Positions 39,400 to 60,165 of a stretch of 64,000 bases of DNA are shown piece after piece. Numbering within the stretch: the stretch's first letter is position 1; the number at the start of each line of letters is the position of its first letter. Under the pieces are notes generated by a model. The model worked only from the letters and a program-made list of their open reading frames with translations, made no database searches and had not been told where the DNA came from. Origin of the DNA: Strobilurus pachycystidiatus (lineage: Eukaryota > Basidiomycota > Agaricomycetes > Agaricales > Physalacriaceae); NCBI GenBank assembly GCA_019915135.1, contig JAHLMK010000001.1, positions 5,022,001 through 5,086,000 on the forward strand, given 5' to 3'. The position numbers were made by a program, and so were the translations under genes.

Positions 39400-39934
39400 T
39401 CACATAGACTGCCGTGCCTTGTGAACATCGAACAGAGAAAGACAGCACTTCGTAACAATCGCATCTCCCGGTCCCCTGATAGAGAGCCAAGGAATCTCAG
39501 GAAAGTGCTTTTGCGGTGCTTGACATTCTGAAAAGCACAGGTACTTCGTCGCCAGCGCTACATAGCGGCGCAGCTTCTCATGCGCATGGTTGAGACGAAC
39601 GCCTATGTTTATCATCTCTATTGAAGACTCCGAAGAGCCCGCCTGGGCGGAGGCGAGCAGACTCTCTATACGTTAGATAACATATATAGGCGTATACACC
39701 TACCACCGGCCCTGCTCTGTGAACCGATGAAAGACACTGGAAACACATCTGATCTGGAAGACATTGGGTGTGTGCTTCGGTCTTGCGCATAGGTTTTACT
39801 CGTTGGTGTATTGAGATTTTAGTCAGGTGCTGAACAATCTCCGTCAAATTTGGTCCTGTTTTTTGTCCATTATGCGAACCTGTCTCGTTGACCATTTCAT
39901 TGGTACGCGGAATTGCATCTTCTAGGATCAATTG
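39400..39934 (-). pseudogene. 3' part of a host gene split by the giant transposon
   Basis: Two minus-strand exons, 39704-39934 and 39400-39663, joined by a GTAGGT...GAG intron, encode QLILEDAIPRTNEMVNETG, a CLPDQMCFQCLSSVHRAGPV block and a helical end (NIGVRLNHAHEKLRRYVALA). The frame is open at 39934, where the CAATTG target duplication lies. Continuing at 59114 on the other side of the transposon the same frame goes on upstream (KPLIEFMSARLQIVKGQSSR) without a stop. I infer that this was one gene before the insertion. Family not recognised; the cysteines may be structural. Confidence 0.55.
39929..39934. repeat. Left 6-bp target-site duplication (CAATTG)
   Basis: Matches CAATTG at 59109-59114. 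The second copy of the transposon is preceded by CCAGTC instead, so CAATTG belongs to the target and not to the element. Confidence 0.75.
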
Positions 39935-39959
39935 TGTGGCGGATATAGTGTAACAAAAA

Positions 39960-40270
39960 TACATTTTCTTGATATTTACGCACCAAAGTCCGCTTTTTCA
40001 TCGTTTGCGCGCAACTTGGCTGCCTTTTGCTCAATAATCACGCACCTCTGTTAGCATCAAGACGCTTTCGCACAACCATCAAGGCGGCAGTCAAAACACA
40101 CGCACCCCCAAGACACACGCGTTCAAATTCACGCACCTGATTTACAAAGCGGTCAAATTCGCGCATACCACATGTGTGCATCGAGAGTTTCACACATGCC
40201 AGCTATAGTTGTTTCCTTAAATTCACACACCCTTTGTTTTTCTCTCAAAACACGCACTCGCGATCTCGGA
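39960..40270. repeat. Left subterminal repeat cluster
   Basis: Seven or more variants of a short motif, (C/A)AAATTCACGCAC, in about 300 bp: for example at the phrases TTTACGCACC, CAAATTCACGCACC, CAAATTCGCGCAT, AAATTCACACACC and AAACACGCACTCGCG. The inverse (GCGTGAGTTTGG, TGCGTGATTTTG) recurs at the right end of the transposon. Arrays like this are usual transposase binding sites. Confidence 0.55.
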
Positions 40271-40847
40271 ATACCTCTCGATTCGCACTAGTGTATGGAA
40301 AAGGGTTGTTTTCACGCTGGGTTGAACCCTCGGCTCCGCGATCTGTTTAGGCCTTTGTGACTGTGACGACGTGTCGCGTCTTTGTTGATTTTCAACCGCC
40401 ATCATTGTGTCCTCCCTCGTCCGCCATGCCGGAGTTCACAGTCATCAAGTACTTCGACAACAAGGTGGCACTTCATGCCAGTGATAAAGGGAGCACTGGG
40501 CTGCCCGCTAGTGACCCTTCCGAGTTTGGTAAGCTCGGCATGGTTCTCGTCATAATATCTCTGTATCTGATTTCTTTCCAGGCCGCCTTGGCGTGTTTGA
40601 GGCGACTTTGGCGCGGTCAAATGGTGCCCGCCAGTCTGTGACCATTCACAACCCTCTGGACAACGACCCATACTTCCTTCCCATCGCCAAACCACGGACA
40701 TCTGCACGACGGAGTAGTGCTGGCAAGAAGAAGAAAACATCAACGACATCGGCTTGTACACGATGCGTCTCTGTGAGTCCATCCACACCTCACTTCTAGT
40801 CATACTGTCTTATGCCCTTCAAGCCACCCTCACAAGCCGGAACTACT

Positions 40848-41696
40848 TGTTACGACCTGACCCCGCCGTGACAAGGACCCGCTCATGAGAGACTACCCCT
40901 GTAGTCAACCCATAGCTTTCCTGCGAGCGTACCACGTACATCCTCGTATTGTGCTTGACTGGTCGTACTGTACCAGTCATAGGGGCCCTCGATGGTCGCA
41001 CATCCATCTCGCCAGAGACTGTGATACCGTAGGAACCTAATCCCAAGGCACGAGGCTCGCCGCCGGACCTAGTCCCAGGTGTGGCGTCGGGGAGCCTTCT
41101 CTTGTCGGAGTCAACGACGTTGGCGGAGGTATCGAAGGGAGACATGTGGGTGAGTCCTACCACGGAGAGCTCAGAGTGCCCAACGGGGTTGTATGGGGAA
41201 AACTGGTTAAGGACGAAGTCTGAGTAGCTAGTACAACGCTGTCTCTGTATTTATACTAATCCCATGCTTGCTCGTCGTTCCTCTTCTCGAAGCTTCTACC
41301 ACATACTCCCGATGCGTCGGGAGTGGTCCGACGCTGCGGATGACGGAGATCCCGACATCCCGATGACCGCCCGACAGATCGATGACCGCCCATTGGTCGG
41401 GAAGGCGGGTTTGGTCGGGTACCAACTCCCGCCTGACTCACGCGGCCTAAGTATATTCCCGGGGTGTCTTACACCATGTGCGCTCGCTCCAAAGTGTATC
41501 CGGGAGGGCGGGAAGCCCGACAAGGGCGGGACTTCAGGATCCCGGTTCTGTCGCCATAAGGGATCGAACTCTCAACCCCTTGATATATCTCTCGGCATCT
41601 TCCGGTGTGGCGCTGGTTTATGTAGCCGTAGCATCAGGACGCCAAAGTGTGACCAAAGTGGAGGGCCTTGAGTTGCGGTGAGGCCACATCATGACA
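40848..41696 (-). repeat. 3' LTR
   Basis: 849 bp, TG...CA termini. In element orientation this is the downstream repeat; the polypurine tract lies immediately inside it at about 41,699-41,711. Confidence 0.85.
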
Positions 41697-42432
41697 ATAT
41701 CCCCTTTTTAAGTTTCTCGTCCCGAGAAACGAAAGAGTGATCTTCTTTATGGGCTCCTACGGTCGCGTCGATGCTTTCTACAAGGCTCCCCGAGCCTTGT
41801 TAGAGCAAAAGTGTAGTCGCGGTGGAGGGCGCGATGGCTCGGAACCTGCTACGGGAGGGCCGAGACGCGTTTTCCTCGATGAAGACGCGTTCGGAGGAAA
41901 TTCTGAGTAGACAGAAGTGTTTGTATCGTAAAGACGATGTTTTGTTGTCCGGGTCACGTGATCGATTTTGTGTGGCGTATATTTTCGATACTCGTCCTGA
42001 GATGTCCTCGGGAATGCGCCTTTGATCGTACAGAAATCGATTTTTTCATTGCCGCCGGCATTGGTCATGATTTCGTCGTTCGAGCTCCCCGAGCTCAGAA
42101 CAGTACCCGCGCCACGCGCTCGGTACCGTAGTTGTGTCCTCTCCGGGCAATCAGGACTCCCTGCGAGTCAAAACCCCCATCTGAGTGCTCAAGACCCCAT
42201 ATCTGTACCCTCAGATATCCATCTGAGGTACAGATCCCAGGGTCTCGCGGAATGATCTGCAGAATCATTCAAGTGAGTCTATTCTCTGGACCCAGGTGCG
42301 CTTCTTGAAAGCCTATTGCTGATATCCCAGAAGTCCCAGAGATTGGGTGCGGGAACGAGCGCTTGCGCGCGCAGTTATAATGGCGCCACCCTGGAGAAGG
42401 TCCCCAGAACCACTCTCCTACGCCCCTCGACG

Positions 42433-43196
42433 ATGCCCACCTCCTTGCTTGCTCTGATCTCGCGTCGTTCGACAGCCGCGCCGTCTGACGCCCTTCTGGC
42501 CGTCAATCATCGCGGCTTTCGCATCCACGCGCGCCCTGCGCGAATCCCGAGCATCGTCCTGGAAGAATGGATCCGGTGCATTGCCGCCGTCGATGATAGT
42601 CTGTCGAATGATAATTCGTTCGAGTCTGGTCCTCTGTCGTCGTTGGAGTGGTTGGCCCTGGTAAGTTGGCGAATTGGTTCCTGGTAGTTCCCATTGACCA
42701 GGCGCCTTCGATTGGGTGGGTGGACGTATTCTAGTTCACGTTATTGCGCGCCGCGCTCGTCTTCGCTAACGATGTCGAATTTCGTCCCCCGGCAACTTGG
42801 AGTCGTCTTTCACTCGTGCCTCCTCAAGGCAGCGAGACTGTTTCTGCATTGGCCGTGAGTGCCTGGGTGCTGTTGTCGCCATGGGGTGAGTTTTTGTTTT
42901 TCCTTTTTGATTCGTAGTTCTTTGTCTGACGTCGATGGGGCCCAGTGGCTGTAGCGTTGCCTCCCGTCATCATCATCCGCGGGAATATCGACTTCCACCT
43001 CCCGCTTCGATACCTCTGGCGGTGTTCGTCCCGTAGGGACATAGTGACGGCGTTCTGGGCGTCGACGGACGGGGAGGAGAGGGATCGATGGGAGGAGAGG
43101 GTGAAGACGGAGGGTCTATCCGAGATGGGGATGGCGAACGAGTGGGAGGAGGTGACCGAGGAGTGGTGGCTTGGGGCAATGGATTTCGTTCGGTAG
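42433..43196 (+). CDS. Intron-containing passenger gene inside the LTR element (antisense to it)
   Basis: Three exons, 42433-42660, 42735-42885 and 42946-43196, with perfect GTAAGT/GTGAGT donors and TTCTAG/GCCCAG acceptors, encode 209 residues. The start MPTSLLALISRRSTAAPSDA is followed by VNHRGFRIHARPARIPSIVL, EEWIRCIAAVDDSLS, EWLALFTLLRAALVFANDV, SAWVLLSPWGVAVALPPVII, and an acidic, tryptophan-rich end (EEVTEEWWLGAMDFVR). A TATA-like TTATAATGG precedes it by about 55 bp. It lies on the plus strand while the retroelement is transcribed from the minus strand, which explains why its introns were not spliced out during retrotransposition. No family recognised; probably a captured host gene or an element-specific accessory gene. 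The identical copy in the second transposon is also intact. Confidence 0.6.
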
Positions 43197-43746
43197 GGTG
43201 TCGATGAGCTCCTTTCAGGGAATTTTTTGTTTTTTCTGTAGTTCGCATACCGGCTTATACCATTTCTTGTTTGTGATACCCCCACTCTGGGATTTTGATC
43301 GCGTCGTTCGTTGTGATCGGCGCGTCGCGTATGTTTAACGAACACGTACTAGTGGTGACGGCTAATGTTCCTGATTTGCGTGATGGTCGATCACGCCCGG
43401 GGATATTCTGTTGTCTAACTTATCCTTTAGGATCAGGTGTCCGAATGATGCGAGTGCTCGTTTCGGAGGTGTTCCTGCGGGTATGCCGATGGGTGATGGA
43501 TGCTCGCTTTTGCCGGGAGGTGGCGTAGCGTTTCGTAGTGTGGGGATTGCTTGTTGGCGAAGGTGGTTGTCTTTCGACCGGTGGATCTGGATTTTTATTA
43601 CGACAGTCCTCGACTGTATTTCTCTTCCGAAGAGAATGAGCTACGCTGCTTGGCTCGAAACCTGTTCTTCGGTCTTCCCACCGCTAGTTTCCATTTCACG
43701 TCAGGACCCTCCTCCACGAGGAGATCCACTGTATCGTCTGGGTGGT

Positions 43747-44769
43747 TTATTCCTGGTTCGCGCGGAAAGGTTTTCCGTTGTCGGAATACAGTACGGGGTG
43801 TGGAAAGAGAATGAGTCCTCGATCCAAGGGTTGGACGGGGTTCGTGGATTTCTCGAATTCCACTCCGTATAGGAGACGTAGGTGGTGCGGGGTGTTGCAA
43901 GTTTGTTTTGCGCTGTATAGATGCACGGCCCAGGGGTCCAGGATGAGGGAAGGGGGGTGGTAGAACACCGTGAGATCTAGGCGTGGCTCGGTATAGAATG
44001 TCGGGGTTCGTATACGTCGTAGTGGCCCCCGTAAATATCTTGCCTGAAGAAGGCATAATCCTTCTTTCGTGTGTCGAGATAGATGTTGGGGGGTTCTCCA
44101 CAGAACTTCCATACATCGTGCCATGATGGGGATATGTCCGTTCACCAGAGACCGAAGAAGAACCCAGTCTTCCTCTAGTCCCAGCAACCTATAGACCACG
44201 TCTATGACCCATGCAGCTCTGCCCAGAAGGCTCCGGTATTGAGTAGGACCTGATCGTACTGTTGGTTTGAATTCCGCGATGTGGATGGTCAACTCCCTAA
44301 GGAGGGAGAGTACTCGATGTTCGGTTCTGCGAGCTCGTACAAGGGGGGGGATAGTGTCGGAGGTTGTGGTGATTGGAGGCGTTACCCCAACGCCGGGGGA
44401 GGGGGGAGGTTCCGATGTAGTGGTACGTGGGCAGTATGGAGACTTCGTCCTATTGTTACGACCTGACCCCGCCGTGACAAGGACCCGCTCATGAGAGACT
44501 ACCCCTGTAGTCAACCCATAGCTTTCCTGCGAGCGTACCACGTACATCCTTGTATTGTGCTTGACTGGTCGTACTGTACCAGTCATAGGGGCCCTCGATG
44601 GTCGCACATCCATCTCGCCAGAGACTGTGATACCGTAGGAACCTAATCCCAAGGCACGAGGCTCGCCGCCGGACCTAGTCCCAGGTGTGGCGTCGGGGAG
44701 CCTTCTCTCGTCGGAGTCAACGACGTTGGCGGAGGTATCGAAGGGAGACATGTGGGTGAGTCCTACCAC
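43747..44769 (-). CDS. Gag-like open frame starting in the 5' LTR
   Basis: A 340-codon frame in element orientation. The first about 107 residues are LTR-encoded (MVGLTHMSPFDTSANVVDSD, VRPSRAPMTGTVRP) and are conserved in every LTR copy in the window, including the solo LTR. The rest is internal (a Pro/Thr-rich segment, then RTEHRVLSLLRELTIHIAEF and AAWVIDVVYRLLGLEEDWVL). Position and helical character suggest a Gag-like protein, but no CCHC knuckle is present and similarity is not recognisable, so the label rests on position. Confidence 0.45.
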   Translation of the reverse strand: MVGLTHMSPFDTSANVVDSDERRLPDATPGTRSGGEPRALGLGSYGITVSGEMDVRPSRAPMTGTVRPVKHNTRMYVVRSQESYGLTTGVVSHERVLVTAGSGRNNRTKSPYCPRTTTSEPPPSPGVGVTPPITTTSDTIPPLVRARRTEHRVLSLLRELTIHIAEFKPTVRSGPTQYRSLLGRAAWVIDVVYRLLGLEEDWVLLRSLVNGHIPIMARCMEVLWRTPQHLSRHTKEGLCLLQARYLRGPLRRIRTPTFYTEPRLDLTVFYHPPSLILDPWAVHLYSAKQTCNTPHHLRLLYGVEFEKSTNPVQPLDRGLILFPHPVLYSDNGKPFRANQE

Positions 44770-45302
44770 GGAGAGCTCAGAGTGCCCAACGGGGTTGTAT
44801 GGGGAAAACTGGTTAAGGACGAAGTCTGAGTAGCTAGTACAACGCTGTCTCTGTATTTATACTAATCCCATGCTTGCTCGTCGTTCCTCTTCTCGAAGCT
44901 TCTACCACATACTCCCGATGCGTCGGGAGTGGTCCGACGCTGCGGATGACGGAGATCCCGACATCCCGATGACCGCCCGACAGATCGATGACCGCCCATT
45001 GGTCGGGAAGGCGGGTTTGGTCGGGTACCGACTCCCGCCTGACTCACGCGGCCTAAGTATATTCCCGGGGTGTCTTACACCATGTGCGCTCGCTCCAAAG
45101 TGTATCCGGGAGGGCGGGAAGCCCGACAAGGGCGGGACTTCAGGATCCCGGTTCTGTCGCCATAAGGGATCGAACTCTCAACCCCTTGATATATCTCTCG
45201 GCATCTTCCGGTGTGGCGCTGGTTTATGTAGCCGTAGCATCAGGACGCCAAAGTGTGACCAAAGTGGAGGGCCTTGAGTTGCGGTGAGGCCACATCATGA
45301 CA
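44454..45302 (-). repeat. 5' LTR with promoter
   Basis: 849 bp, TG...CA termini. It contains the minus-strand TATAAATA at about 44,855-44,862 and the methionine (44769) of the Gag-like frame, so the frame starts inside the LTR and reads into the internal region. Confidence 0.85.
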
Positions 45303-47059
45303 CTACTACGCCCGACGACATTGTGAGTATCATCTGTCTTCCTCTGGATCTTGGTCCTCGTCTCTTCTCCAGAAGAACAAGTACTCTACACTCAACAACA
45401 AGACCGCCGCGGCCATTCTAAATGGACTTGAGCTCAAAGGCCAGCTCCTTCACTGCTGTCGAGGCAAGGAGCTTATCTTTGGCATTGACGACGTATGGTC
45501 TTATTTCACTGTCCGTTATACCACTAATAAGTACATTTAGTTTGTCATTCGCGTATGTTTCGGACTCGAGGGCCATCTACTTTGGATTCCGACCGCCCAG
45601 TTCGATGAGCTCACTGGGAGCCCACCTGTGGCGCGAGGACAGAAGAGTAAATCGTTCGAGGTTCCCGCTGACATGTTCCAAGGACCGCCGAACAGTACTG
45701 GTTACGCCTCGATCCAGATGTACTTTCGACGGGGCAAGTGGACGTTAATTCTTCTCGACCATAACGTCATGATCTCCTTTCATGTTATGCGTCTCCGCCG
45801 ACCATGTACTCCCTCAGATTTTCTGTCCGATTCGGAGGTAAGTTTACTTCTTATCATCGCAATCTTTGCTCATCTCTGACGCTGTAGATATGGCCGTATC
45901 TCTGGTCCTCCTCCCATGGTCCAGTACATCATCTGGAGCCGGAGAAGACCATGGAGGCTCTTTGTCTCTGGCGCTCGCAAATCCTGGCATCGAAAGATCA
46001 TACTCCGATCTTTGTCGCTGTCAAGGGCAATCAGCTAGTCAACAACGGCTACGGTGCCCAGGAGACGACTGACATGCTCTGGCACGCGCGTATTCATCCT
46101 ATCATGCCTATCTATTTACTTGCCCCGCTTGATTCTCTATGGCGTCAGTTTGTTGACCATCACAGGCGTTACCAACTTGGGCGTCTGGCGATGCTTGCCA
46201 AGACTCCACTCGCACATACGTCAGGACCTGGTGCATTCTCCTTCAATGCAGATGCTCATAAGCGCTTCTTGCGAACCGTTCCCGTCTACCGACGTGACAC
46301 TGTATGAATCTCAAAGGAGGAGTTCCAGGAGCTGCGAGACACTGATCTGCTGAACTCAGACGCGACACTCAACGACGATGGGACTGCATCCGTGACAACT
46401 GGTAAGCCTCTCAAAGCCAGTGGTATACGCCCTTATAGTCTTTTTAGACACCCATGACGATCCATTCTATCATCCTGGCCTGGAACCAACTATCCGCAAC
46501 ATGGACAATCGCACAAAAAAGCTCAAACTACCGATCTTTTGCCTCTCTATTTCTCGCGGTGTCAAGTCAGCAAAGACCGTCAATATTTATACGCCCATCA
46601 CAGCAAAGATACCTGCGTCATGGAATACGCCAATCTATGTAGGTTTTTGACGCCTGACTTTCTCCTCTTCTAATCCTTTGCAGTCTTTCCTTCAAATGAA
46701 GCCGACTGAGGATGTCCTTGTCGTCGCTCATAATACAACGCTGGGCCCTTATAGTTTCGAAGTATTTGTGTCTGCTGTATGGACAGCCGACCGGGTGGAG
46801 AATCTGCCTGCAACAAAGCGGACACCGCAGATATTTGGGAAATCGGTGAGAAAGAGAGCGGCTGCATGCGGTCTTAGGAGGGAGATAGAGCGAGCAGCAA
46901 AGAGGTCCAAGGTTGAATCGCGCGGCTGCTTGTTGTACAAGTCCCAGAACGACGACATAGGAGATGAGCTATTACAGGAATTGGAGGAGATGGACGAGGG
47001 CGACGAGGATGACGATGAGTAATAATTATATGTATTTATCGAGTTGTAGTTGCACTAGA

Positions 47060-47480
47060 CCCACTGTGACAAAAGTGGTACTTCACTCAGCATGTGTGGC
47101 ACAGTCAAGCATCGTGAGGGATGCGGGTACTCCAATAGTACTCCAGAAACACCACCAAATGACAGAAGACATTTAGGAAAGGTCATGATTGAAGGAATTG
47201 CGCCACTGCGGGTCCTAGAGCAGAAGTGGTACTTCACTCAAGGTACGTGGCGCAGTCACGAGTCGCGAGGATATCCGAGGACCTGAAATTCACCCTACAC
47301 ACACCACAAAGTGGAAGGATACATGTAGGAATGGCCAGAATTGAAGGATTCACGCCACCGCGGTCCTAGAGCAGAAGTGGTACTTCACTCAAGGTGCGTG
47401 GCACAGTTAGGCAGTGTGAGGGTACCCGAGTACTCGAAATATACCTCAAAAACACCATAAAGTGACAGAAGATATTAGAG
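47060..47480. repeat. Imperfect direct repeats (about 150-bp period) upstream of the transposase
   Basis: Three copies of a unit containing AGAAGTGGTACTTCACTCA followed by a GTGGC(A/G)CAGTCA phrase, at about 47,070, 47,220 and 47,370. Degenerate further copies lie at about 47,990-48,060, beyond an AT-rich insertion. The array separates gene A from the transposase gene and sits in its promoter region. Confidence 0.6.
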
Positions 47481-47484
47481 ATGT

Positions 47485-47928
47485 CCACAAATATATATTC
47501 GAGTATATTCTTATTCATGCACACGGATAATCCCCCCTCCAAGGGTCATAATTGTTATTCATGAATATACTCTTAATCTTATTCATCAACTTAATCTTCA
47601 CTGCGAATATTTCGCTTTTATTCATGAATATTCATGAATATACAAGTATAATCATCTCAATGTCACTCAAAATCACAGTTAAAGTTATTGAATGAACTAT
47701 AAATCATTCAAACAGCATCTAAATTTATCATAAACTTGTCTTCAGTACTGAGAATTCAGTATTGTCAGACACTCATGAATGAGTTGAGGATTATGTGAAC
47801 TTGAAGGTTCATATTCTATATTCGTCAACTTATTCTTATTCACGAATATAATATATTCATCATATTCATATTCATGAATAAGATTAGGAATATATTCATG
47901 AATATTCTTCTTTACTCCTTATTTGTGG
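47485..47928. mobile_element. AT-rich MITE-like insertion
   Basis: A 444-bp stretch far richer in A+T than its surroundings, starting CCACAAATA and ending with the inverse TATTTGTGG, and packed with the palindromic word ATTCATGAATAT in both halves. It interrupts the 150-bp repeat array: the GAAGATATT phrase of the unit is found on both sides. The exact target duplication is unclear. No coding capacity. Confidence 0.5.
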
Positions 47929-48186
47929 TCATGTCTAGAAGATATTCAGGAATGATCAGGATTGATGGAATTGCGCCACTAGGATCCTCAGTGCAGAAGT
48001 GGTACTTACTCACTGAACTCTCTAGGGCAAAAGTGGTACATGTCTTAGTATCTGTGGTACAGTCAGAGTACCATTCTCATGGCTCATGGGTGTCTTTGCT
48101 CGCTCTGTTAGCTGTTTTCCATCCCTGGTCCTTATCGGTTCAGCATCTGAGTCATTTGAAATTTGCCTCTTTCTCTGTTACTATCA

Positions 48187-49808
48187 TGTCCGAGAGTCAT
48201 GGCTCACCCTCGATTCACCAGTTCCTTATGGAATGTCACAGAGCATCCACACGAGCTCTGCTTGTCATCAACTGTATCCCAAATGCAGAATTGGATGCAG
48301 CGGAACGAGCATTACATGTTCTGTCCGCATTGCGCACTATTCTCCAGTCTATTCAAGGAGAACTTGACAATGGTCAGGATCTCTCCGAGTACCTTGACAC
48401 TCTCATCTCTCCTCTGGTCGCCTTCCTCGAGCGGCCTCCTCCAGATCCATCCGATTTCGTTCCCAGACTGTATCAGCCCACACAGGGTCGTCCTCGCTAT
48501 ATCCTCGATCTGCAACGCGCTCTATTGCTTCATGAGCTCGGTGCAAGCTGGAATGACACTGCCCATGCCATGGGTATCAGTCGTCAGACCCTCTGGCGAC
48601 ATCTGACTCAAGCTGGTCTAGGGGGTACTCGCAGAGAGTTCACCATCATGTCAGACGAAGAGCTGGATGAGCAGATTGCCCAGCTCTCTCTCGAACATCC
48701 ATTCAGCGGGTCCATCATTCTCAAAGGTCTGCTCGAGTCACGGCATATTCACCTGCCCCTGCGCCGAATTCAGCAGAGTCTGCAGAGAGTTGACGAAATC
48801 AGTGTTCTTACCAGGTATGTACAATCATTACTCGAGTATTGGATGGTATGATACAAGCCTCACAGATGGGGTGCTCTGATGTCTAGAACCGTATACAAAG
48901 TTTGCGGAGTAAATGCTTTGTGGCATCAAGATGGAAACGAGAAACTCAGGCCTTGGGGCTTCTATATTCATGGTTGCATTGACGGCCACTCTCGCCTTCT
49001 TATCTACTTGGAGTGCACAAACAACAAGCGGTCAGACACCGTTCGAAAGTTCTTCCTCGATGCCATAGGTGTTTATGGATGGCCTAGCCGTGTTCGCGGT
49101 GACTATGGAGGAGAGAACAATGGCATAGAGGAGGAGATGATTCGTCACTGGGGCAAGCTACATAATGCCTATATCCGTGGCCAGTGAGTTGACAAAGACC
49201 CATGTTTGGCTTTTTCTCAATATAAATTAAGATTGACGAGAAATGTCAGAATGGAAAGAGGCTGGCGCGACATCAGGAAGGATTGCATTGAAGCCTTTTG
49301 CCAGATCTTCTTCTATCTCGAACGACTTAGCTTGCTGGATATGGCAAATGCCATTCACCGCCTATGTCTTTTCCTTACCTTCCAGCGGCGCATCCAGGTC
49401 TCGCTGAATCGTGCACTTGATGCCTGGAATCATCACAAGATTCGCACAGATAGGAACCGTAGCCCGGTGGTCATATATGAGCTCAGTCGAGAGCAGGCCA
49501 TCAACCGTGGATACTGGACAGGCGACGCCGGTGACCCACTTGAAGACGTACAGAACAACCCTCGATATGGCGTTGACTCATCGTCCTCTTTCACCGGAGA
49601 CGATCATCAGGAAGGGCAGCGTGAAGATATTCCTCCTGATATAGACTTGGATATGCAGCGCGAGCGAGGACTACTGTTGAACAAGGATGATGAGATAGAG
49701 GAGGTGCGAGCTCTTCTGAACAATTTTGACTTCGATAGAGATGACGGAAACTGGGGAATCAAAGTCTATTGTGAAGCAGTAGTTACTCTGACAGCTAGAT
49801 TACAGTGA
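48187..49808 (+). CDS. Integrase-type (D,D,E) transposase
   Basis: Three exons. The first encodes MSESHGSPSIHQFLMECHRA, a helical region, then a helix-turn-helix (LLLHELGASWNDTAHAMGIS, RQTLWRHLTQAGL) as in IS3/Tn3-like DNA-binding domains. Across a GTATGT...TCTAG intron the catalytic core follows: GVNALWHQDGNEKLRPWG with the first aspartate, IDGHSRLLIYLECT, VRGDYGGENN with the second aspartate and, after another intron, RMERGWRDIRKD with the glutamate. The C-terminus has ALDAWNHHKIRTDRNRSPV and a charged tail. This is the 'integrase core' family found in fungal and animal transposons. All three catalytic residues and the HTH are intact, so the element may be active. The last intron acceptor is the only uncertain junction. 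Confidence 0.85.
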
Positions 49809-49849
49809 TACTCGTCCATCAGACTGCACTTTGAACAGAGTTACGTACT

Positions 49850-50480
49850 TCATAATCTCCGATGAGTACATCCGCCAGTAAACCTCGTTCTTTGGTTGTG
49901 ATCCGGATGATAAACCCTCAGAATCATGCATCGCTGTTCCTTCTCGGGGAGAGGTTTCATAGTAGACCAAGTAAGCCGCCTTAGGATGATGGGGTGAGGA
50001 AACCAGACTACGATCTTCTCTGCAACGTTCTCCCATGTTGGCTTAGTGACAAACCAACTGGCCAATATTGATAGTCTCTCCTGATGTGTTGTTGGAGTGC
50101 GACTGATGTGGCCACTGTTGGAGCCTCCCCTACCCCTACCTCCTCTGCCTCTGGCACCTGTAGCACTGGGCTTTGGACGCGCTTTTTCTTCCCTATCTGA
50201 GTACCCTCATGAACACAGTGTATTCAAAACAGATTCGAGTCAACATACTTTTCTTTCTCTTGGTCCTTGCCTCCGATGCTGTTTCATCAGTCGGAATGAG
50301 GTGCTTCTCAAGGTACCATGCGCTGTTTCCAATAGATTCGGTGTTCGACATGTCTGACGTTCATCATAGTGAGAAAATACTGCTGCAACTATATGATCTC
50401 AGTAATGAACGTACCGTCGGGACTATCAGTCTCATGCACCTCATAGTAGTCCTCACCGATCTGATATGAAGGTCAGAAGC
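49850..50480 (-). CDS. Small J-domain-like protein (HPD motif), possibly frameshifted
   Basis: Minus-strand exons (YQIGEDYYEVHETDSPDG; NSAWYLEKHLIPTDETASEA; then a long last exon) give a basic RGRGGRGRGGS stretch, SILASWFVTKPTWENVAEKI and a helix EKEQRCMILRVYHPDHNQ. The HPD tripeptide preceded by a basic helix is the signature of J-domains, which recruit Hsp70. After DHNQ the frame ends quickly (FTGGCTHRRL), while a shift of one base would continue as NEVYWRMYSSEIMK, which looks like helix III. So there may be a one-base frameshift. The gene converges on the transposase; their ends are about 40 bp apart. Confidence 0.45.
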
Positions 50481-50576
50481 GCCAATTGCCTGTTCTGCAA
50501 AGAATAAAACAAATGTATTCGTAAACAAACAGATATCACTAAAGAAGGTAGAGATTACTTTCGATTGCGCGACCAG

Positions 50577-51209
50577 TAGCTGTGGGTATGAGGCTCATGG
50601 CCTAGCAATTGATGGGGTCCCATTCAGCCTCAAAACACATCAATTGCTAGGATTGGGCAATTGCTAGGAATATGAGCCTCATGGTTCAGGGTCCTAACTT
50701 GATATATTGCTATTAGGTTAGTTGGGCTAGGTAAGGGTTAGGTTAGAGGTTAGAGGTAAGGGTGTCTCGGTGTCTCGGTGGAAGAAAACGGTATTTATAC
50801 TCAGTAAAAAAGATTCAGCAATGAATTATCACTTTTTAATACTTAGGGCTTGTCCCTAAGTATGTCTAATTCATTGTGTTTATTGTCACAAATACTTAGG
50901 GCAGTCATGCCCTAAGTATGGAATATAGCAGCAGTACTTAGGGTTAGTGAAACTAAGCCTAAGTCTGTAATAATGAAAATTTATTGCTGATATAGTCATA
51001 AAATGCGATCAAAGTTCACTATAAATAAGGCTTTCTGGCTGAGTGGTTATGCCCCCCAAACTCATTATTTTTAGTCAGAAGGTCAGTGGTTCAATCCCTG
51101 CTAATGACAACGATTAAAACTCAAGTTGCTAGAGCCTAGTAATTGCTAGGTTTGGAGGCTCAATTACCCTGGGCAATTGCTAGGGAAATGAGGCTCCAAT
51201 CTACAGCTA
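50577..51209. mobile_element. MITE with hairpins and CTAGCAATTG termini
   Basis: About 633 bp with imperfect inverted ends: left TAGCTGTGGGTATGAGGCTC...CCTAGCAATTG, right (reverse strand) TAGCTGTAGATTGGAGCCTC...CCTAGCAATTG. Each end contains further CTAGCAATTG inversions that can fold into hairpins. The interior has three palindromes of ACTTAGGG type (50840-50864, 50892-50920, 50935-50965), a TTAGG-rich stretch (50712-50762) and a tRNA-like promoter. No target duplication could be resolved and there is no coding capacity. Confidence 0.5.
51028..51105 (+). ncRNA. tRNA-like pol III promoter sequence (SINE- or tRNA-derived)
   Basis: Contains an A-box-like TGGCTGAGTGGTTATG and, about 50 bp later, a perfect B-box-like GGTTCAATCCC, spaced as in type-2 tRNAs (Leu/Ser). 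No acceptor stem can be formed, so it is not a functional tRNA. It lies within the hairpin-rich MITE. Confidence 0.45.
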
Positions 51210-51505
51210 GGACTCATTGCGCCGCCTCTTCTGATCCTCATCACCCTTCGAATCAACTTTTTCCGAGGATGTCTACCAATGCATCCGGGAGTATGAGCAC
51301 ATAACCAATCTAAACAGCCGCGTCTCTTACCTTCTGGGAGGCAGTCGCACGCGTCTTTGGCCGTGTACGTGCCTCAGCGTCAGCATCTGCAATATCATCC
51401 GTAGTCGCCTGTTCGGCTCCCTTGTGGTACTGCTTAGGGCGCTGTCGTGCTATATATCAGTATGTACTCGAGACCAACAGGTGATGTAGAAGTATTTACC
51501 TTAAT

Positions 51506-54500
51506 TCAATTTCGCAGCTTTCGAGCAATAGCCTCGCAACACTCCTTCAGAAAAGTATACGCAGCTTGATATCCTGGCTGCTCGGGGTCCTCCTCATCAA
51601 GGAAGCGAACAACAACGTTGTTGTAGAATCCAGAAAGACCAAACTCTCCAACATAGAGTATATCCGCGTTCATATGTTTTGGATTGCCGGGATCTCCAAA
51701 AAGACGCTCTAAGCAGGCAACGAGATTAAGACCCGGATGAAAACAACCATTGGACAAGCTCTGTAACTCGAGATAGAATTGGGACGTCAATGATGCTGTC
51801 TGCGGAAGTAGTTAGGGAAACAATGCGGCATCGATGCATGAAGACAGGTAGCACAACATACCGGAAACTTATGTGAGTATGACCGAAAAATCACAGCAAA
51901 GCTTCGAAAACCTTCTGCCTCCCACTGAACACGGGGATAGTGCAAGCGAAAATAGGAGAGCAGAGCATATACTGCCTTTGAGATCCTCAAGCACTGTAAG
52001 AAGACCTGTGGAACAGTTGGGAGTGAAGAGAATGAGGTTGGAGGAAAGCCGGCCGCCAGAGCGGGAATGATTGTGTATAGAGTCGACAAGAAGTCCGTCA
52101 GAATGCAGAGTCCACCGCTGCCGAGGACTATGTGCTGCTCAAAGAACAGATTATCCTCCTGCTGTGGAAACGGTTGACCCGTACTACCGCATTGGAGAGA
52201 AAGATCAACAAAGTCTGATAGGAATTCCGTGTTGAGAGAGCTCCGAATCTCCTCCAGAAGACTTGCCGGGTTAAGAGCGGGTGGCACTCGTCCCAGGACT
52301 AGCTCCTGCCACGATTGAATGCGAGTATGCCTCTCTTGAATATGTGTATACTGAGGTGAAGCCTTGTCTCTCCACTGTATCTTGAGGATCAGCGAAACAG
52401 CAATGTAAGGGTCATGAGAAATGACTTACCCAACTTGTACGCCTCGTACTCCCTGTCGATACAGCAGGACACGACATCTTCGAAAGGTATCGCAAGGTAC
52501 AACTGTGCGTCGAAGGGATCACATACAAAGATGTGTCATGCGAGGTCACTGGAGGGTCTGACTCGACTGGTGGGTCTGGCGACGGTGCTTGTGATGGTGC
52601 AACGGATGGTTCTGCTACTGGAGGCGATGGCGCCTCAGAGGACTCTACGATTGGAGGTGACGGCGGCGGCGGCGAGGACATCTCAACAGACGGAGCTGGA
52701 GACGGCCTTGAATGAGAGGGACCGGGTGTAGATGATCTGGCGGTAGACTCGTAGTCTTGTGTCTTGGAACTCAAACTCGATGCATTGTCAAAAGATGAGA
52801 AGTTGGGAAATGCTGAAGTAGATGATTCAGCAGTAGAACCATGGCCAGAGCGAGCGGAGCCCGATGGAAAGGAGGGAAATTCAGGCATGTCTTCATTGTC
52901 GTAGATGAACTGTAACTGCCGTAAGCTTATAGAATCTCACAGTGAATGGTATACCATACATCCTCGTCACAAAAGCCACGCTCATCAAAACACTGCTGGT
53001 CCTCGCCATTGGAGGATACAAGGAACAAAGGCTACAACTGTGTGAGTATGCAAAGGGTAGGAAAGGACCGTACACACCTCCTTTCCTTTACCCTTAGAGG
53101 TTTTCAAACGGGATGTCTCGTTCTCGAAGTCGTTCTGTGTCTGTCTCGTCAGCTATGTGGTTGTAAGATGAAATGTGATAAGACAAACCTGGTGTTTGCT
53201 CTTGGTTCTTGTCTCATCCTCTGTGATATCACCAACCGAGACTTTACTACGCTTTTTATGGGGCTTTCTTGGCGACTGTAGACCTTTGCTGTCCGACGCA
53301 GAGTGCTCTCCGTCATCCAACTACTCTAGTGTCAGATACTGTCGATGGAATGACAGATGACTCTTACCTTGTGCTTATTCGGTCTTGCTCGTGAGGCTGC
53401 TAGTTTAGTCCCGGACTTGGGCGTCTCATTGTCCGAATTGTAGATGTCGCGGAACATCTATCAAGGCGACGTTAGATCCAGGACGTCTCAGATTAAGCGA
53501 CCAACTTACCTTGGTAGACTTTCCGCGCACCTTTTCTGAAGTTGTCTGTGTCGCGGACGAATTTGTACTTGACGACTTATAAGCATTCTTACGAAGGTTA
53601 GAGGTCGGCAGAGATGCAGAGGAAGAGTCACTATCGTCAATGTCTACGGCAGTGTTGTCCCTCTTACGTCGAGACGCCCGAGGCTTTGGGGTCCGGCTGG
53701 AGGTAGGCTTATTCTAGAGTCTACATCAGTAGGGTTTAATGGTTGCCAATTCGATGTTACCTTCGGCATGAACTCCTCCGAATCCTCTTCCATGACAGAG
53801 TCTTCGTCCGAGTCTGTCGTAATGTTGCGCTCCATGATCTCCTTTTGAGATAAGTCGCGCGTAACATCAGCGTAGTCCTGGCTTGTTACGCCACCGAGTG
53901 GGAGATTGGGCTCTGTAGCATCGAGGGCAATGTAGACCATGTTTGGAAATAACTTTGCCTTGTTTCGGACGCCGCCACCAACTGAAGCACTAACAAAGCT
54001 ATCAGTCAAGGTGTTTATCAAGACAGGATACGACTTACTGAAGCATTTGTTCCACTGTAAGGTGTTTTCCACCTTTGAAAGTCATGGGGCGAAGAATGTG
54101 GGACACTCCGGGATGTCGACGTGCCTGGCTCTTACCGACTGTCCTTGTCGACTGCTCAACGGCCATCAGAACGCGCCATCCAGTATAGAAGCGGAGGGGA
54201 TGGGGTTCAATGTCATCGAACGCATCATCGATGCAAGCATCAACTTGGAAGCCGGACAAGTCTTCGGCAGCGTCGACCGTTGCAGTGTATCCCTCGTTGA
54301 CGAGTAAGCCGGTTCTGTGAGGTCACAGAATCAATTCTAATTCAGAAGAAAAGGAATGCAAAAGACTTACTTAGACTCGTTCGGTCTTTCATACTCTCCC
54401 ACAGCGACGGCTTTGGTCCCCTCTACAAGTGTGACCGTGAACTTGCGTGTCTTCACGGGTGGAGCCTTGACCTTAGCAGCTGTGCTTGTAGACTTGCCAC

Positions 54501-56078
54501 TGTGCTTCTTGCCACGATTCTTGTAGCCCTCACCACGGCCCGTATGATCAAGGTCAGCGGCAACCTGATACTCCAGAATGAATCAGCCACAAAGAGGGTA
54601 GCAGCAGCAGGAATGGTACTCACTGTCTGGGCAGGATGGAACCGAGCGCTCCGATCTCTAGCCTGGCTCTTGAGGCCTTCCACAAAGTCGGATCCACCGC
54701 CGGCTGCCGCCACCTCCTCATTCCGTTGAAGAGCAGTAGCGGTTGCCTTGAAGGGTGCTGCTCCGAAGTCCTTCGACGATGATGGCTGAGGAGAAGGATT
54801 GGCTGAAGCGGAAGCGGCAGTACGAGACCCAAAAAGAGAGTTGTATGTTGACGAGCTGGTGGATGCCAAAGGTATGGATGGTGGGGCTTGCATGGGGGTC
54901 GAGTTCGTCGCAGCAGCAGGCGGTGGTGCCTATGGAGAATATTAGATGAAATCAAAGATCAGAGACTATAGACAGACCGAAGGCGAGGAGATCTCATCGT
55001 GTATACCAAGCGGACAGCCACAGACACCACAGGGAGTTCCCGGATTACGAGAAGACTTGGGAGTAGTGACTTCGTCGGCCCAGAAACCTCGACACCCACA
55101 AGGGTGATTACCCTTGAAGTTGCGACATCCGCCGCCGCCTCCAAGAAGCCTGACTCGGAGATGAAGATGCGAGAGTGGACCGGCTCCAATGTTGCGCATA
55201 GTGCTTGTGACAGGGTGTTACGACCTGACCCCGCCGTGACAAGGACCCGCTCATGAGAGACTACCCCTGTAGTCAACCCATAGCTTTCCTGCGAGCGTAC
55301 CACGTACATCCTCGTATTGTGCTCGACTGGTCGTACTGTACCAGTCATAGGGGCCCTCGATGGTCGCACATCCATCTCGCCAGAGACTGTGATACCGTAG
55401 GAACCTAATCCCAAGGTACGAGGCTCGCCGCCGGACCTAGTCCCAGGTGTGGCGTCGGGGAGCCTTCTCTCGTCGGAGTCAACGACGTTGGCGGAGGTAT
55501 CGAAGGGAGACATGTGGGTGAGTCCTACCACGGAGAGCTCAGAGTGCCCAACGGGGTTGTATGGGGAAAACTGGTTAAGGACGAAGTCTGAGTAACTAGT
55601 ACAACGCTGTCTCTGTATTTATACCAATCCCATGCTTGCTCATCGTTCCTCTTCTCGAAGCTTCTACCACATACTCCCGATGCGTCGGGAGTGGTCCGAC
55701 GCTGCGGATGACGGAGATCCCGACATCCCGATGACCGCCCGACAGATCGATGGCCGCCCATTGGTCGGGAAGGCGGACTTGGTCGGGTACCGACTCCCGC
55801 CTGACTCACACGGCCTAAGTATATTCCCGGGGTGTCTTACACCATGCGTGCTCGCTCCAAAGTGTATCCGGGAGGGCGGGAAGCCCGACAAGGGCGGGAC
55901 TTTCAGGATCCCGGTTTTGTCGCCATAAGGGATCGAACTCTCAACCCCTCGATATATCTCTCGGCACCTTCCGGTGTGGCGCTGGTTCGTGTAGCCGTAG
56001 CATCAGGACGCCAAAGTGTGACCAAAGTGGAGGGCCTTGAGTTGCGGTGAGGCCACATCATGACACAGGGAGGGCCAT
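51506..56078 (-). CDS. Gene C of the giant transposon: large protein with N-terminal cysteine cluster
   Basis: At least ten exons on the minus strand. The N-terminus has a cysteine/histidine cluster (CRNFKGNHPCGCRGF ... CGVCGCPLGIH) that could bind zinc. Then come Ala/Pro/Ser-rich linkers, a basic stretch (GYKNRGKKHSGKS), a folded block FRFYTG-like (PHPLRFYTGWRVLMAVEQST, HILRPMTFKGGKHLTVEQML), GGVRNKAKLFPNMVYIALD, low-complexity Ser/Pro regions (PSPAPSVEMSSPPPPSPP) and a C-terminal helical domain ending ECCEAIARKLRN. No family recognised. The likely start, MALPVTSTMRNIG at 56078, is separated from the rest by the solo LTR, which sits after the third codon; translation could instead start at a downstream methionine. 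It is transcribed towards the transposase gene. Confidence 0.55.
55216..56065 (-). mobile_element. Solo LTR of the same retrotransposon family
   Basis: 850 bp, same family as the 849-bp LTRs but with about 14 differences and one extra base. TG...CA ends, flanked by the 5-bp duplication CAGGG (55211-55215 and 56066-56070). Left by recombination between two LTRs of a former full element. It is inserted at the very start of gene C. Confidence 0.88.
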
Positions 56079-56292
56079 GAGAGTTCCGGGAAAGTGAAAG
56101 AAGAGGGATGAACGGATGAACGAGCCGGCGGACGGGATCAAAGAGCGCTCTTGGAGGGCATCTACGACATCGGATAACGTGGAAGACTCTGTGACTGCTA
56201 CTCGCCAAGATCAGTTCAGGGAATGAGACTGAACACATGAGTGTACTTACAAACGGGAATGGACGACTGAGCAGCTCCCAGTACAAAAACCG

Positions 56293-56830
56293 TCATTGGT
56301 CTCGAAGCAATAATGCGTCGAAGACGGCGCTGGCTCGCATGGGATATATGACTTTGACAATACCTACGACGCCTGCAAGGTATAAGGCGGTTGAGAAGCA
56401 ACTGTGAAGGAAAGAACCGAGAGACTAGAGTGACATCAATATGGAAAAGTGCTCAAATCATATTTGGACTTACTAAGAGTAAAGACGAAGGTCAAAAGGT
56501 GTCCAGTCAGGACGGTGTATGCCATGGACACATCGGAGATGTGGTACGACGAGTAAGCCAATGTCCCAACACGGCAGAGAGCAAGGACACAGATGACGGG
56601 AATGAAAAGAGCGAGTGACATGGAAAGCAACCAGAGAGGAATGTGGCACCAGATTCCATCAGAGTGGGATGCTACTAGGACTGGCGGCTGTCGTTGACGC
56701 ATCTGGAGGCACTGAGTCTTGGAGCAGGAGACAACCTACAGAGTTATATACTTACCGCTACAACAACGGATAACATCCTGAAACACGAGAATGGTGGAGC
56801 CCAGAAGAAACCTTTCAGTCTGGAAATCAT
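56293..56830 (-). CDS. Possible small membrane protein of the giant transposon
   Basis: Three exons can be joined: MISRLKGFFWAPPFSCFRML, then (intron GTAAGT...CCAG) IPLWLLSMSLALFIPVICVL and VSMAYTVLTGHLLTFVFTL, and after a GTAAGT...TTGCAG intron VVGIVKVIYPMRASAVFDAL. Two to three hydrophobic segments in about 125 residues. The opposite strand also has a hydrophobic frame (GAATVIFCYVYFKL) nearby, so the assignment is tentative. No family recognised. Confidence 0.3.
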
Positions 56831-57459
56831 CTGTGGGTTGCTATTGGAGCTGCTACAGTCATATTTTGCTATGTGTATTTCAAACTGGTCCCCCACAAAC
56901 AGAGTCTTGGAGCCTATCATGACGTTTGGACAAATTGGGTGGCGTATATACCGTCACCAGAGACTATAGATGTCAGTGAAGTGATGCAATCTACTCAAGA
57001 GGTGCCCCACCTCGTCGCAAAACGTTTAGCAGGGGCCACAATGCTCCAATCAGGCGACCGGACAAGAGGGAAGGGAAAGACACGCGTCACAACGTGTCTG
57101 CTATGATCAGACAGTGCCTGAACCATCTGTCTACAAGCTCGCAGTGTATTCGTGCTTGTGCCTAGCGAGCGACGCGACAAAATCCGGTCTAATCACTTGA
57201 AGGGACTCGGAGTAACACGGTCGGATTCTAGGCGGGTAAGAGAGCACTACAGTCCACAGAAATCCTGGGCTGGATTAAGACGATGATGATGAAGACCCAC
57301 TTGCCTCTAGTCTCCAAGATAGTATCCGCACGGCGCCCAAGAACAGAGGACACACAAAGAAAGCTGTAGTTGGGCGCCGGAGGCTGAGAATTTTAAAACT
57401 CCGATGCCCGAACCGGACGCGCTGTGATGTGACGGCCCTTCGGAGGGAGACAGAGTGCA

Positions 57460-59108
57460 TTTGTGGGTCTCATACGAGGGTATTGCTCGATTTCAATGTG
57501 ACTTGACCGTGAAGAGTGAGTTTGACCCGACGGGAAATCACCTGTGTGAGTTTGGAAGGGTGATACTGTAGTTGCGTGAGTTTGGACAATATATCCTGGC
57601 TCGCGTGTGCATTTGATGTTGTGGCAGTTACTGGGGAGGCCCATCTGTCTCTAACCGTGGTGATGTTTGTATATGTTTGTTCCCACTAAATTGCCATCGA
57701 AAAGTGTCCGCCTTATTATTTACCGCTACATCGACCTGAGCTCTTTGGAAATTTGAAAAATTCTACTTTCTCGTCATAATAGCAAAGTTGTTACCAAAAG
57801 AAACCCCACATTGGTCAGCATCTTTGAGATACAAGAAGGTTTCAGCACTTCCACACCGAGTTAGAAGGGTCAAGTGGTAACAAAAGTTTCATTTACACTT
57901 CAAAAGCATGTGGGCAAATTTTCAGAACCATTGAGGGTGTGTAACGGTAAATAATGCACAATCCGTAAACGCGATAGATAGGCGCAATCAGTACGCGATC
58001 GTTATGTGACTTGCGTGACCTAGGGTTTCAAAGTCCAGTCCATGTAGACCGGTAAGACCGGTGGACTGGACCGGACTGGACCGGTCACATGACCAGTCCA
58101 ACATGGACCGGTCCTACCAGTCCTACCAGTCCCGGTCCTAGGTCCAGAGCTCAACCTAAATTTATTAGGACTGGTAAAGACTGGTCTAGGACCGGTTTGG
58201 ACCGGTCTATTCAGGATTCAGTTAAAATCGGTCAAATGTCCTTCTAAAGGGTCATTATATATGATTTTATGGTAAACTTACCTTGACTTGACCGGTCAAT
58301 GGTAAACTTACCCTCACTGAGGCGTTCCTATGGTAAACTTTCCATGACTTCTATACTCATATGGTACATTTAGCTGCACATACTTTCTTACATTTGAAAA
58401 TGTCATCTTGTTGTGGCTAAAACATATCATACAAGCTTCACTAGTCATTCATTTCACTGTCATTGACTATATAATCTATCTGGTAAACTTATATGATGGT
58501 AAACTTACTCAAAAATGTGCAGAAATATAAATTTAGGCTCGTGATCCTTTGGACCGGTCCTGGACCGGTTTAAGACCGCAGACCGGACTGATTAGGACCG
58601 GTTTTTGCGGTCCTAACCAGTCCAGTCCTAGGTCCAGCCAGATTTGGGAATTTTCTGGACCGGTCCAGTTCCCAGTCCATGACCTCAGAGGTCAAAAGAC
58701 CGGACCGGACCGGACTTTTAAACCCTAGCGTGACCCACCGTGTCTCTGAGCTGTTCTGGCGGGTTTACGGACTCTCATGGACAATAAACTAGTGTGAAAC
58801 TCTCACAAATGCTCCGTATGGTGGTTGACCTCATTTTATCTGGGTTTAAAGCATAACTGATACTGGAAATACGTGTTGTATACTATGAGCATGCAATCAT
58901 GTGGCTATGCACTTAGTCATCCGCCACGGCATTGGAGAGAGATGGGCCTCCCCACAGTTACCCTGTGTGAGATTGAGCAACCCGTTTGCCATGTTGTGTG
59001 TATCTGCAAATCAGACTCTGACGTGCGTGATTTTGTTCATACATGCGTGTGAAACTACTGAAATGGTACGTGTGTGTATAAATCTTTTGTTACAGTATAT
59101 GTGCCATA
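57460..59108. repeat. Right subterminal region of the giant transposon
   Basis: Non-coding. Contains inverse copies of the left subterminal motif (GTGAGTTTGACC, GTGTGAGTTTGG, GCGTGAGTTTGG near 57.5-57.6 kb; TGCGTGATTTTG and GCGTGTGAAAC near 59.03-59.06 kb) and the right terminus ending CCATA. It is interrupted by the hAT-like MITE. Confidence 0.5.
58021..58727. mobile_element. hAT-like MITE rich in ACCGGT
   Basis: 707 bp flanked by a perfect 8-bp duplication GCGTGACC (58013-58020 and 58728-58735), the length used by hAT elements. Termini TAGGGTTTCAAAGTCCAGTC and, inverted, TAGGGTTTAAAAGTCCGGTC. Both ends are filled with ACCGGT/GGACCGG words; the middle has several copies of ATGGTAAACTTACC. 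No coding capacity. Confidence 0.82.
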
Positions 59109-59114
59109 CAATTG

Positions 59115-59252
59115 CCGGGACGACTGCCCTTTTACGATCTGCAGCCGAGCACTCATAAACTCAATGAGTGGCTTGCTGGTGGCTTGATCCCCGCTCGTGC
59201 AAGGAACAGAGATCGACTGCCTTTACAAAGTAGGTCGTACTACGGACCAGTC
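59115..59252 (-). pseudogene. Host gene fragment between the two transposon copies
   Basis: The 138 bp that separate the duplicated CAATTG from the second transposon copy. Read on the minus strand they contain an open frame (ATSKPLIEFMSARLQIVKG) that continues in phase through CAATTG into the host exon at 39934. This is the same host gene, cut a second time by the second copy at 59253. Confidence 0.5.
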
Positions 59253-59743
59253 TGTGGCGGATATAGTGTAACAAAAATACATTTTCTTGATATTTACGCA
59301 CCAAAGTCCGCTTTTTCATCGTTTGCGCGCAACTTGGCTGCCTTTTGCTCAATAATCACGCACCTCTGTTAGCATCAAGACGCTTTCGCACAACCATCAA
59401 GGCGGCAGTCAAAACACACGCACCCCCAAGACACACGCGTTCAAATTCACGCACCTGATTTACAAAGCGGTCAAATTCGCGCATACCACATGTGTGCATC
59501 GAGAGTTTCACACATGCCAGCTATAGTTGTTTCCTTAAATTCACACACCCTTTGTTTTTCTCTCAAAACACGCACTCGCGATCTCGGAATACCTCTCGAT
59601 TCGCACTAGTGTATGGAAAAGGGTTGTTTTCACGCTGGGTTGAACCCTCGGCTCCGCGATCTGTTTAGGCCTTTGTGACTGTGACGACGTGTCGCGTCTT
59701 TGTTGATTTTCAACCGCCATCATTGTGTCCTCCCTCGTCCGCC

Positions 59744-60165
59744 ATGCCGGAGTTCACAGTCATCAAGTACTTCGACAACAAGGTGGCACTTCATGCCAGT
59801 GATAAAGGGAGCACTGGGCTGCCCGCTAGTGACCCTTCCGAGTTTGGTAAGCTCGGCATGGTTCTCGTCATAATATCTCTGTATCTGATTTCTTTCCAGG
59901 CCGCCTTGGCGTGTTTGAGGCGACTTTGGCGCGGTCAAATGGTGCCCGCCAGTCTGTGACCATTCACAACCCTCTGGACAACGACCCATACTTCCTTCCC
60001 ATCGCCAAACCACGGACATCTGCACGACGGAGTAGTGCTGGCAAGAAGAAGAAAACATCAACGACATCGGCTTGTACACGATGCGTCTCTGTGAGTCCAT
60101 CCACACCTCACTTCTAGTCATACTGTCTTATGCCCTTCAAGCCACCCTCACAAGCCGGAACTACT
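59744..60165 (+). pseudogene. Gene A, second copy, 5' exons up to the LTR insertion
   Basis: Same first three exons as at 40426 (MPEFTVIKYFDNKVAL ... CTRCV), stopped by the LTR element inserted at the same position (after CTACT at 60161-60165). The downstream exons would lie outside the window. Confidence 0.6.

Follow-up and report, generated by a model that had tools for sequence, protein, structure and literature searches.

Multi-gene DNA transposons of the IS3EU group are already known, as attested by the cited passages on Styx (PMC10853768) and on the TET+ IS3EU elements of rust fungi (PMC12730594). In the parts of PMC10045372 drawn on here, IS3EU elements usually have 6-bp target-site duplications and TA..TA ends, and GingerRoot elements, described from a clubmoss, have 6-bp duplications and occasional TG..CA ends. 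Styx of Zymoseptoria is an IS3EU element of 7.9 kb with four open reading frames (orfs), including GATA, CCHC and DUF3577 genes, while the rust TET+ IS3EU elements have TAYGG..CCRTA ends, terminal inverted repeats longer than 30 bp, and TET/JBP and alpha-kinase genes (cited passages of PMC10853768 and PMC12730594, respectively). The locus described here lies in 64,000 nucleotides of the Strobilurus pachycystidiatus genome (GCA_019915135.1, contig JAHLMK010000001.1, positions 5,022,001 to 5,086,000, forward strand; hereafter the window, to which coordinates without a contig name refer). At 39935..59108 is a full-length three-gene element of the IS3EU/GingerRoot group with a gene, alpha, whose product is predicted to have the fold of Fpg/Nei DNA glycosylases and is likely to be a base-excision enzyme, an overall reading that is given a probability of roughly 0.6.

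Styx, like the window element, encodes a transposase of the DDD/E integrase type along with several extra genes, has inverted repeats and 6-bp duplications, and makes local jumps; it differs in its ascomycete host and its length, and no glycosylase-fold gene is named in the cited passages of PMC10853768. The rust elements (as described in the cited part of PMC12730594) share with it the 6-bp duplications, a comparable end pattern (TAYGG..CCRTA) and the presence of extra genes beside the transposase; whereas they have TA at both ends, the longer terminal repeats and TET/JBP, the window family has TG at the 5′ end, a 24-bp terminal repeat and alpha instead. GingerRoot (cited part of PMC10045372) has a related transposase, 6-bp duplications and at times TG ends, but these are paired as TG..CA, in contrast to TG..TA in the window family. 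The element itself is not a new type; what is unusual is alpha, a predicted glycosylase-fold gene. Searches of an open-licence literature library brought up no Fpg/Nei-type glycosylase carried by a transposon, and as far as these searches reach, alpha would be the first such protein reported on a eukaryotic DNA transposon. The features of the element are as follows.

39935..59108: complete IS3EU/GingerRoot-type transposon (copy 1), 19,174 bp including nested insertions, core about 11.9 kb; one of three copies with distinct duplications
39929..39934 (left) and 59109-59114 (right): target-site duplication CAATTG of copy 1
39935..39958, + strand: left terminal inverted repeat, starting TGTGGCGG; the same end is present in copy 2 and in the copy on contig C9
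59085..59108, - strand: right terminal inverted repeat, reading TATGGCAC inward
39978..40257, + strand: five subterminal ACGCAC motifs in a single direction
40426..47022, + strand: gene alpha, at the left end, predicted Fpg/Nei fold; disrupted twice in this copy, in exon 3 by a long terminal repeat (LTR) element and at 46305-46307 by a TGA
48186..49808, + strand: transposase, exons 48186-48814, 48866-49183 and 49232-49808; 507 residues, open frame
49853..56735 (approximate), - strand: gene beta, with an N-terminal Cys cluster, a middle part and a J-like tail with an HPD motif; broken by a solo LTR and an insertion of about 650 bp
59253..64000, running past the window to C1:5100426: start of copy 2, left duplication CCAGTC at 59247-59252

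Genome-wide searches covered the contigs of the 51.8-Mb assembly (G000). Copy 2 (G000:C1:5081253-5100426) is complete, begins 144 bp downstream of copy 1, is of equal length with six substitutions in 19,174 bp, and has CCAGTC on both sides; the third copy (C9:688988-701262) is 12,275 bp long and is flanked by TGTGAG. Because three copies have three different 6-bp duplications, the ends at 39935 and 59108 are true ends. The left and right repeats of copy 1 are identical at 20 of 24 positions (a repeat listing gives them as 22 nucleotides at 86%). The left 420 bp contain five inward ACGCAC motifs and none on the opposite strand, against a mean of 0.09 in the mononucleotide shuffles that served as the enrichment control, and the right end has one inward motif in copy 1 and three in the C9 copy. 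A genome search with the pattern of such ends gave 47 matches versus 13 for the reversed control. Three short non-autonomous two-ended relatives (C11:230577-231416, 840 bp; C11:1633048-1633889, 842 bp; C1:6068051-6068940, 890 bp) share the unequal TG/TA ends, one with a perfect 6-bp duplication (CAAATG) and two without. All seven larger two-ended units, namely copies 1 and 2, the C9 copy and the units C14a, C14b, C10 and a 2.8-kb relative described below, have 6-bp duplications.

The transposase consists of a helix-turn-helix (HTH) region and an rva_4 integrase core with the catalytic residues D232, D289 and E324. Two of its exons match rva_4 above the cut-off, and HTH_7 is just missed (E 1.2e-4, 22.6 bits, cut-off 23.8). 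Among 7,994 candidates scored there are 68 relatives with up to 57% identity, and those that are named come mostly from mushrooms, with a few from other fungi and animals. A serine that is invariant across 20 aligned relatives is leucine in the window transposase, as read by eye, and the catalytic triad is retained. The ratio of nonsynonymous to synonymous divergence (dN/dS) between the window and C9 genes is 0.11, and the C9 gene carries one premature stop. The genome has 34 rva_4 matches grouped into at least 18 loci. Since it combines an rva_4 integrase-core transposase, 6-bp duplications and the outer pattern TGTGG..CCATA, the element is placed with little doubt in the IS3EU/GingerRoot group as a three-gene cut-and-paste DNA transposon. 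The terminal repeats and the inward ACGCAC motifs are probably the sites that its transposase recognises and binds, and the enzyme would then join the element to a target cleaved at points 6 bp from each other.

A sequence-only reading of the window had proposed the inverted ends, the CAATTG duplication, motif clusters of opposite orientation near the ends, a D,D,E transposase with HTH, and a second copy with the same terminus and a different flank, and had guessed at the IS3EU kind from the 6-bp duplication. All of this was borne out, the duplication exactly as stated and the second copy as a complete unit with its own duplication; among the checks that it suggested, an assembly search for units with the same ends and other 6-bp duplications, and a hidden Markov model search of the transposase, returned copy 2 and the C9 copy, and the rva_4 core, respectively. 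The gene at the left end, the most unusual part of the element, went unnoticed in that reading.

Gene alpha is intact on C9 (C9:700774-698638, 597 residues), and it has relatives in five mushroom species, with full-length homologues of 567-665 residues. The homology query comprised 387 residues, of which 34 came from the window frame, one of them differing from C9; the N-terminal C9 piece used in one Pfam search ended in three residues that do not match C9. In structure comparison, two predicted models of alpha match the Fpg/MutM/Nei/NEIL DNA glycosylases. Further likenesses to these enzymes are a Met-Pro-Glu start (M1, P2 and E3 are invariant in the five homologues and also present in C9, in the window and in another locus on contig C35), a Gly-Lys motif and a stretch resembling the H2TH motif. 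Differences are an identity of about 9-19% in structural alignments, the length, the location on a transposon, and GYGA in place of the GxGN of Fpg; in weak alignments, GYGA or GSGA occupies the GxGN position in four of the five homologues, the stretch being missing in the fifth. Judging by the predicted models, alpha is probably an Fpg/Nei-fold protein.

Several observations weigh against the overall reading. As regards class, the 5′ end of the window family is TG, not TA: TA at both ends, the strict definition of IS3EU in the cited part of PMC10045372, was found in none of copies 1 and 2, the C9 copy and the three short relatives, all of which have TG..TA, and the element is therefore filed under the IS3EU/GingerRoot group and not as strict IS3EU. 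As regards fold, the two models, both built from the same five-sequence alignment, have a mean predicted local distance difference test score (pLDDT) of 44 and 55, and template modelling scores of 0.4-0.5 by target and below 0.3 by query in most rows. The Met-Pro-Glu start lies in a stretch with pLDDT below 50, and outside the aligned range in the second model. Searches of Pfam and NCBIfam found no Fpg/Nei domain in alpha, which has no Pfam match of any kind, and there is no sequence match in the PDB; its score with the Fpg profile is beaten by two of 200 shuffled sequences, and hhalign gives a probability of 4.7. As alpha fails the family sequence profiles, it is called an Fpg/Nei-fold protein and is not filed as a member of the family. 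As regards function, alpha is broken in two of the three element copies, which nonetheless moved.

The most likely function of alpha would be that of a base-excision glycosylase/apurinic-apyrimidinic (AP) lyase, by which the element would be rid of modified cytosines or damaged bases. According to the cited part of PMC12730594, the TET/JBP enzymes of transposons are thought to remove silencing marks by starting the removal of 5-methylcytosine, with excision left to base excision repair; in the passages of PMC5566547 cited here, NEIL1 excises 5-carboxylcytosine and stimulates TDG. A transposon-borne Fpg/Nei-type protein could supply the glycosylase or lyase step after TET/JBP, and if so, alpha might help the element to escape silencing. 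A role in counter-silencing of this demethylation type is proposed tentatively, and alpha makes transposon counter-silencing testable with a single purified protein. It is conceivable, though not favoured, that fungal IS3EU-type transposons carry their own Fpg/Nei-fold base-excision enzyme, beside or in place of TET/JBP, to evade methylation silencing or mutation resembling repeat-induced point mutation, and that different kinds of transposon exchange the gene among themselves; the targets of the enzyme would then be modified cytosines, or deaminated or oxidised bases.

The C35 locus (C35:123400-127100), which together with the three element copies makes up the occurrences of alpha in this genome, has 44-52% identity to them and lies on a contig with no listed rva_4 match. 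CxC6 (E 5e-17) is encoded by a reading frame about 0.4 kb beyond it, and a sub-threshold CxC5 (E 8e-4) by one farther on; both are Cys clusters that are associated with KDZ transposases. Among the matches listed, the KDZ match nearest to it on C35 lies at a distance of about 30 kb. These neighbours hint at a sharing of alpha by IS3EU elements and KDZ-associated loci, in the way reported for TET/JBP (cited part of PMC12730594). In a weak comparison by eye, no contigs common to alpha and transposase homologues were seen among the matches listed. KDZ transposase domains are abundant in the assembly, with at least 174 matches listed, some of them split over exons.

Proteins of the Fpg/Nei class bind DNA, bend it and cleave it where a base is missing. 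It might therefore be supposed that alpha, which sits within the element beside its left end, acts in transposition itself as an Fpg-fold AP lyase or DNA-bending protein, trimming or stabilising the intermediates of excision and integration and playing no part in silencing. This is unlikely: copies 1 and 2, in which alpha is broken, separated recently, as their six differences in 19 kb indicate (although the C9 copy could supply alpha in trans), and unit C14b of the sister family has clean duplications yet no alpha match by tblastn. It is equally doubtful that the element merely picked up alpha as a passenger, in which case it would be a common repair or DNA-binding gene that brings the element no benefit. 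The presence of alpha on C35, away from any listed rva_4 match, would agree with a passenger, as would an alpha dN/dS of 0.35 that is based on just 11 synonymous and 12 other changes; but the C35 gene itself adjoins KDZ-associated Cys-cluster orfs, and an exon-wise search found no H2TH domain above the Pfam cut-off elsewhere in the assembly, so that neither a host donor nor any sign of recent capture from an Fpg/Nei gene of the host is seen. That the fold assignment is wrong, the barrel-plus-helices models resembling Fpg by chance, is rather improbable, and would be in keeping with their low pLDDT and with the lack of support from sequence profiles. The undescribed 19-kb multi-gene transposon type that the sequence-only reading had envisaged is hardly tenable: a 19-kb unit did move as a whole, but about 7.3 kb of it consists of nested insertions, the C9 copy measures 12.3 kb, the transposase, duplications and ends fit IS3EU/GingerRoot, and multi-gene IS3EU elements have been published.

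A sister family with a transposase 51% identical to that of the window comprises units C14a, C14b and C10, with perfect duplications (TGATTC, GAAAGG and TATACG, respectively; CCTTTT in the 2.8-kb relative). Its terminal repeats are alike over about 100-130 bp, start with TATGGGAG, and end in TA..TA. Three genes were modelled in C14b (13,313 bp): besides the transposase and a homologue of beta, there is a weakly TET/JBP-like gene at the far end (Tet_JBP E 0.017, 14.8 bits, under the cut-off of 34.9). In each of C14a, C14b and C10, a below-cut-off Tet_JBP match is situated at that end, away from the transposase. If one family has an Fpg/Nei-type enzyme and its sister a TET/JBP-like one, the two would fit a common purpose. 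Across the assembly there are 27 TET/JBP matches, none above the cut-off, scattered over many contigs. The idea of giant elements, raised by C14a (C14:1019648-1063673, 44,026 bp) and by the C10 unit (C10:675371-765026, 89,656 bp, read in part), was dropped: C14a is a 13.3-kb element inflated by two nested LTR elements (5,984 and 24,719 bp), and C10 is assumed to be alike.

Gene beta has kin adjoining two other IS3EU-type transposases of the genome, in C14 and in a locus designated C1b, whose element ends were looked for and not found. Apart from those of the transposase and of C9 alpha, the gene models were made by a small splice-site program and are approximate. The sequence-only reading had counted at least three spliced accessory genes; there are two, because in sister elements the Cys-cluster gene has the J-like piece as its C-terminus, and there beta and tail form one gene model in C14b and consecutive same-strand models in C1b. 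Pairwise BLAST of beta gives E values of 1e-36 for C14 with C1b, 2e-6 for the window family (C9 sequence) with C1b, and 8e-4 for the window family with C14; for the tail alone they are 2e-11 (C14 with C1b), 1e-3 (window with C1b) and 0.05 (window with C14). The Cys cluster of the window matches that of C1b (47% over 34 residues, E 3e-4) and was not seen in C14. In C14 and C1b the transposase follows beta on the same strand, whereas the two genes are convergent in the window. These matches and a dN/dS of 0.15 over seven modelled exons show that purifying selection has conserved beta, as a partner gene and not as casual cargo; it may be a transposition or regulatory partner. Multi-gene systems with a common partner gene are thus present in S. 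pachycystidiatus in no fewer than two IS3EU-type families.

The HPD motif of the tail reads YHPDHN in the window and YHPDKN in C1b, and the corresponding sequence in C14 is YYPDRN. The DnaJ profile matched none of the beta tails above the cut-off (best E 0.52, C1b tail), and the tail is therefore called J-like only. The N-terminus of beta gives a ubiquitin-like hint under the cut-off (Rad60-SLD E 0.0098). In a large protein set, the 7,996 best word-sharing candidates included no beta homologue at E ≤0.001, the query being rich in low-complexity sequence. When the window element is compared with its C9 counterpart, synonymous divergence comes to 0.03 in alpha, 0.16 in the transposase and 0.58 in beta, a span of about 20-fold; given this unevenness, the two elements look like mosaics, as though modules had been exchanged.

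Four nested insertions, together about 7.3 kb, account for the difference between the full length of copy 1 and its core:

40848..45302: LTR element, 4,455 bp, duplication CTACT; not in C9
50563..51218 (limits approximate): insertion of about 650 bp with inverted ends; not in C9
55216..56065: solo LTR, duplication CAGGG; not in C9
57632..58954: inverted-repeat element, 1,323 bp, flanks CAGTTAC; relatives elsewhere in the genome

The insertions are common to copies 1 and 2, so the loaded 19-kb unit moved whole. The 1,323-bp element is split in turn by an insertion at about 58021-58727, and C9 gives no alignment to it or its immediate surroundings. No long retroviral-type reading frame was noticed by eye in the 4.5-kb LTR element; the solo LTR belongs to the same family as its LTRs (98% alike), and the 2.8-kb unit on C14 contains a related LTR. 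A 151-bp tandem repeat (47073-47472), with 2.6 copies in the window and more in C9, occupies part of the interval from alpha to the transposase.

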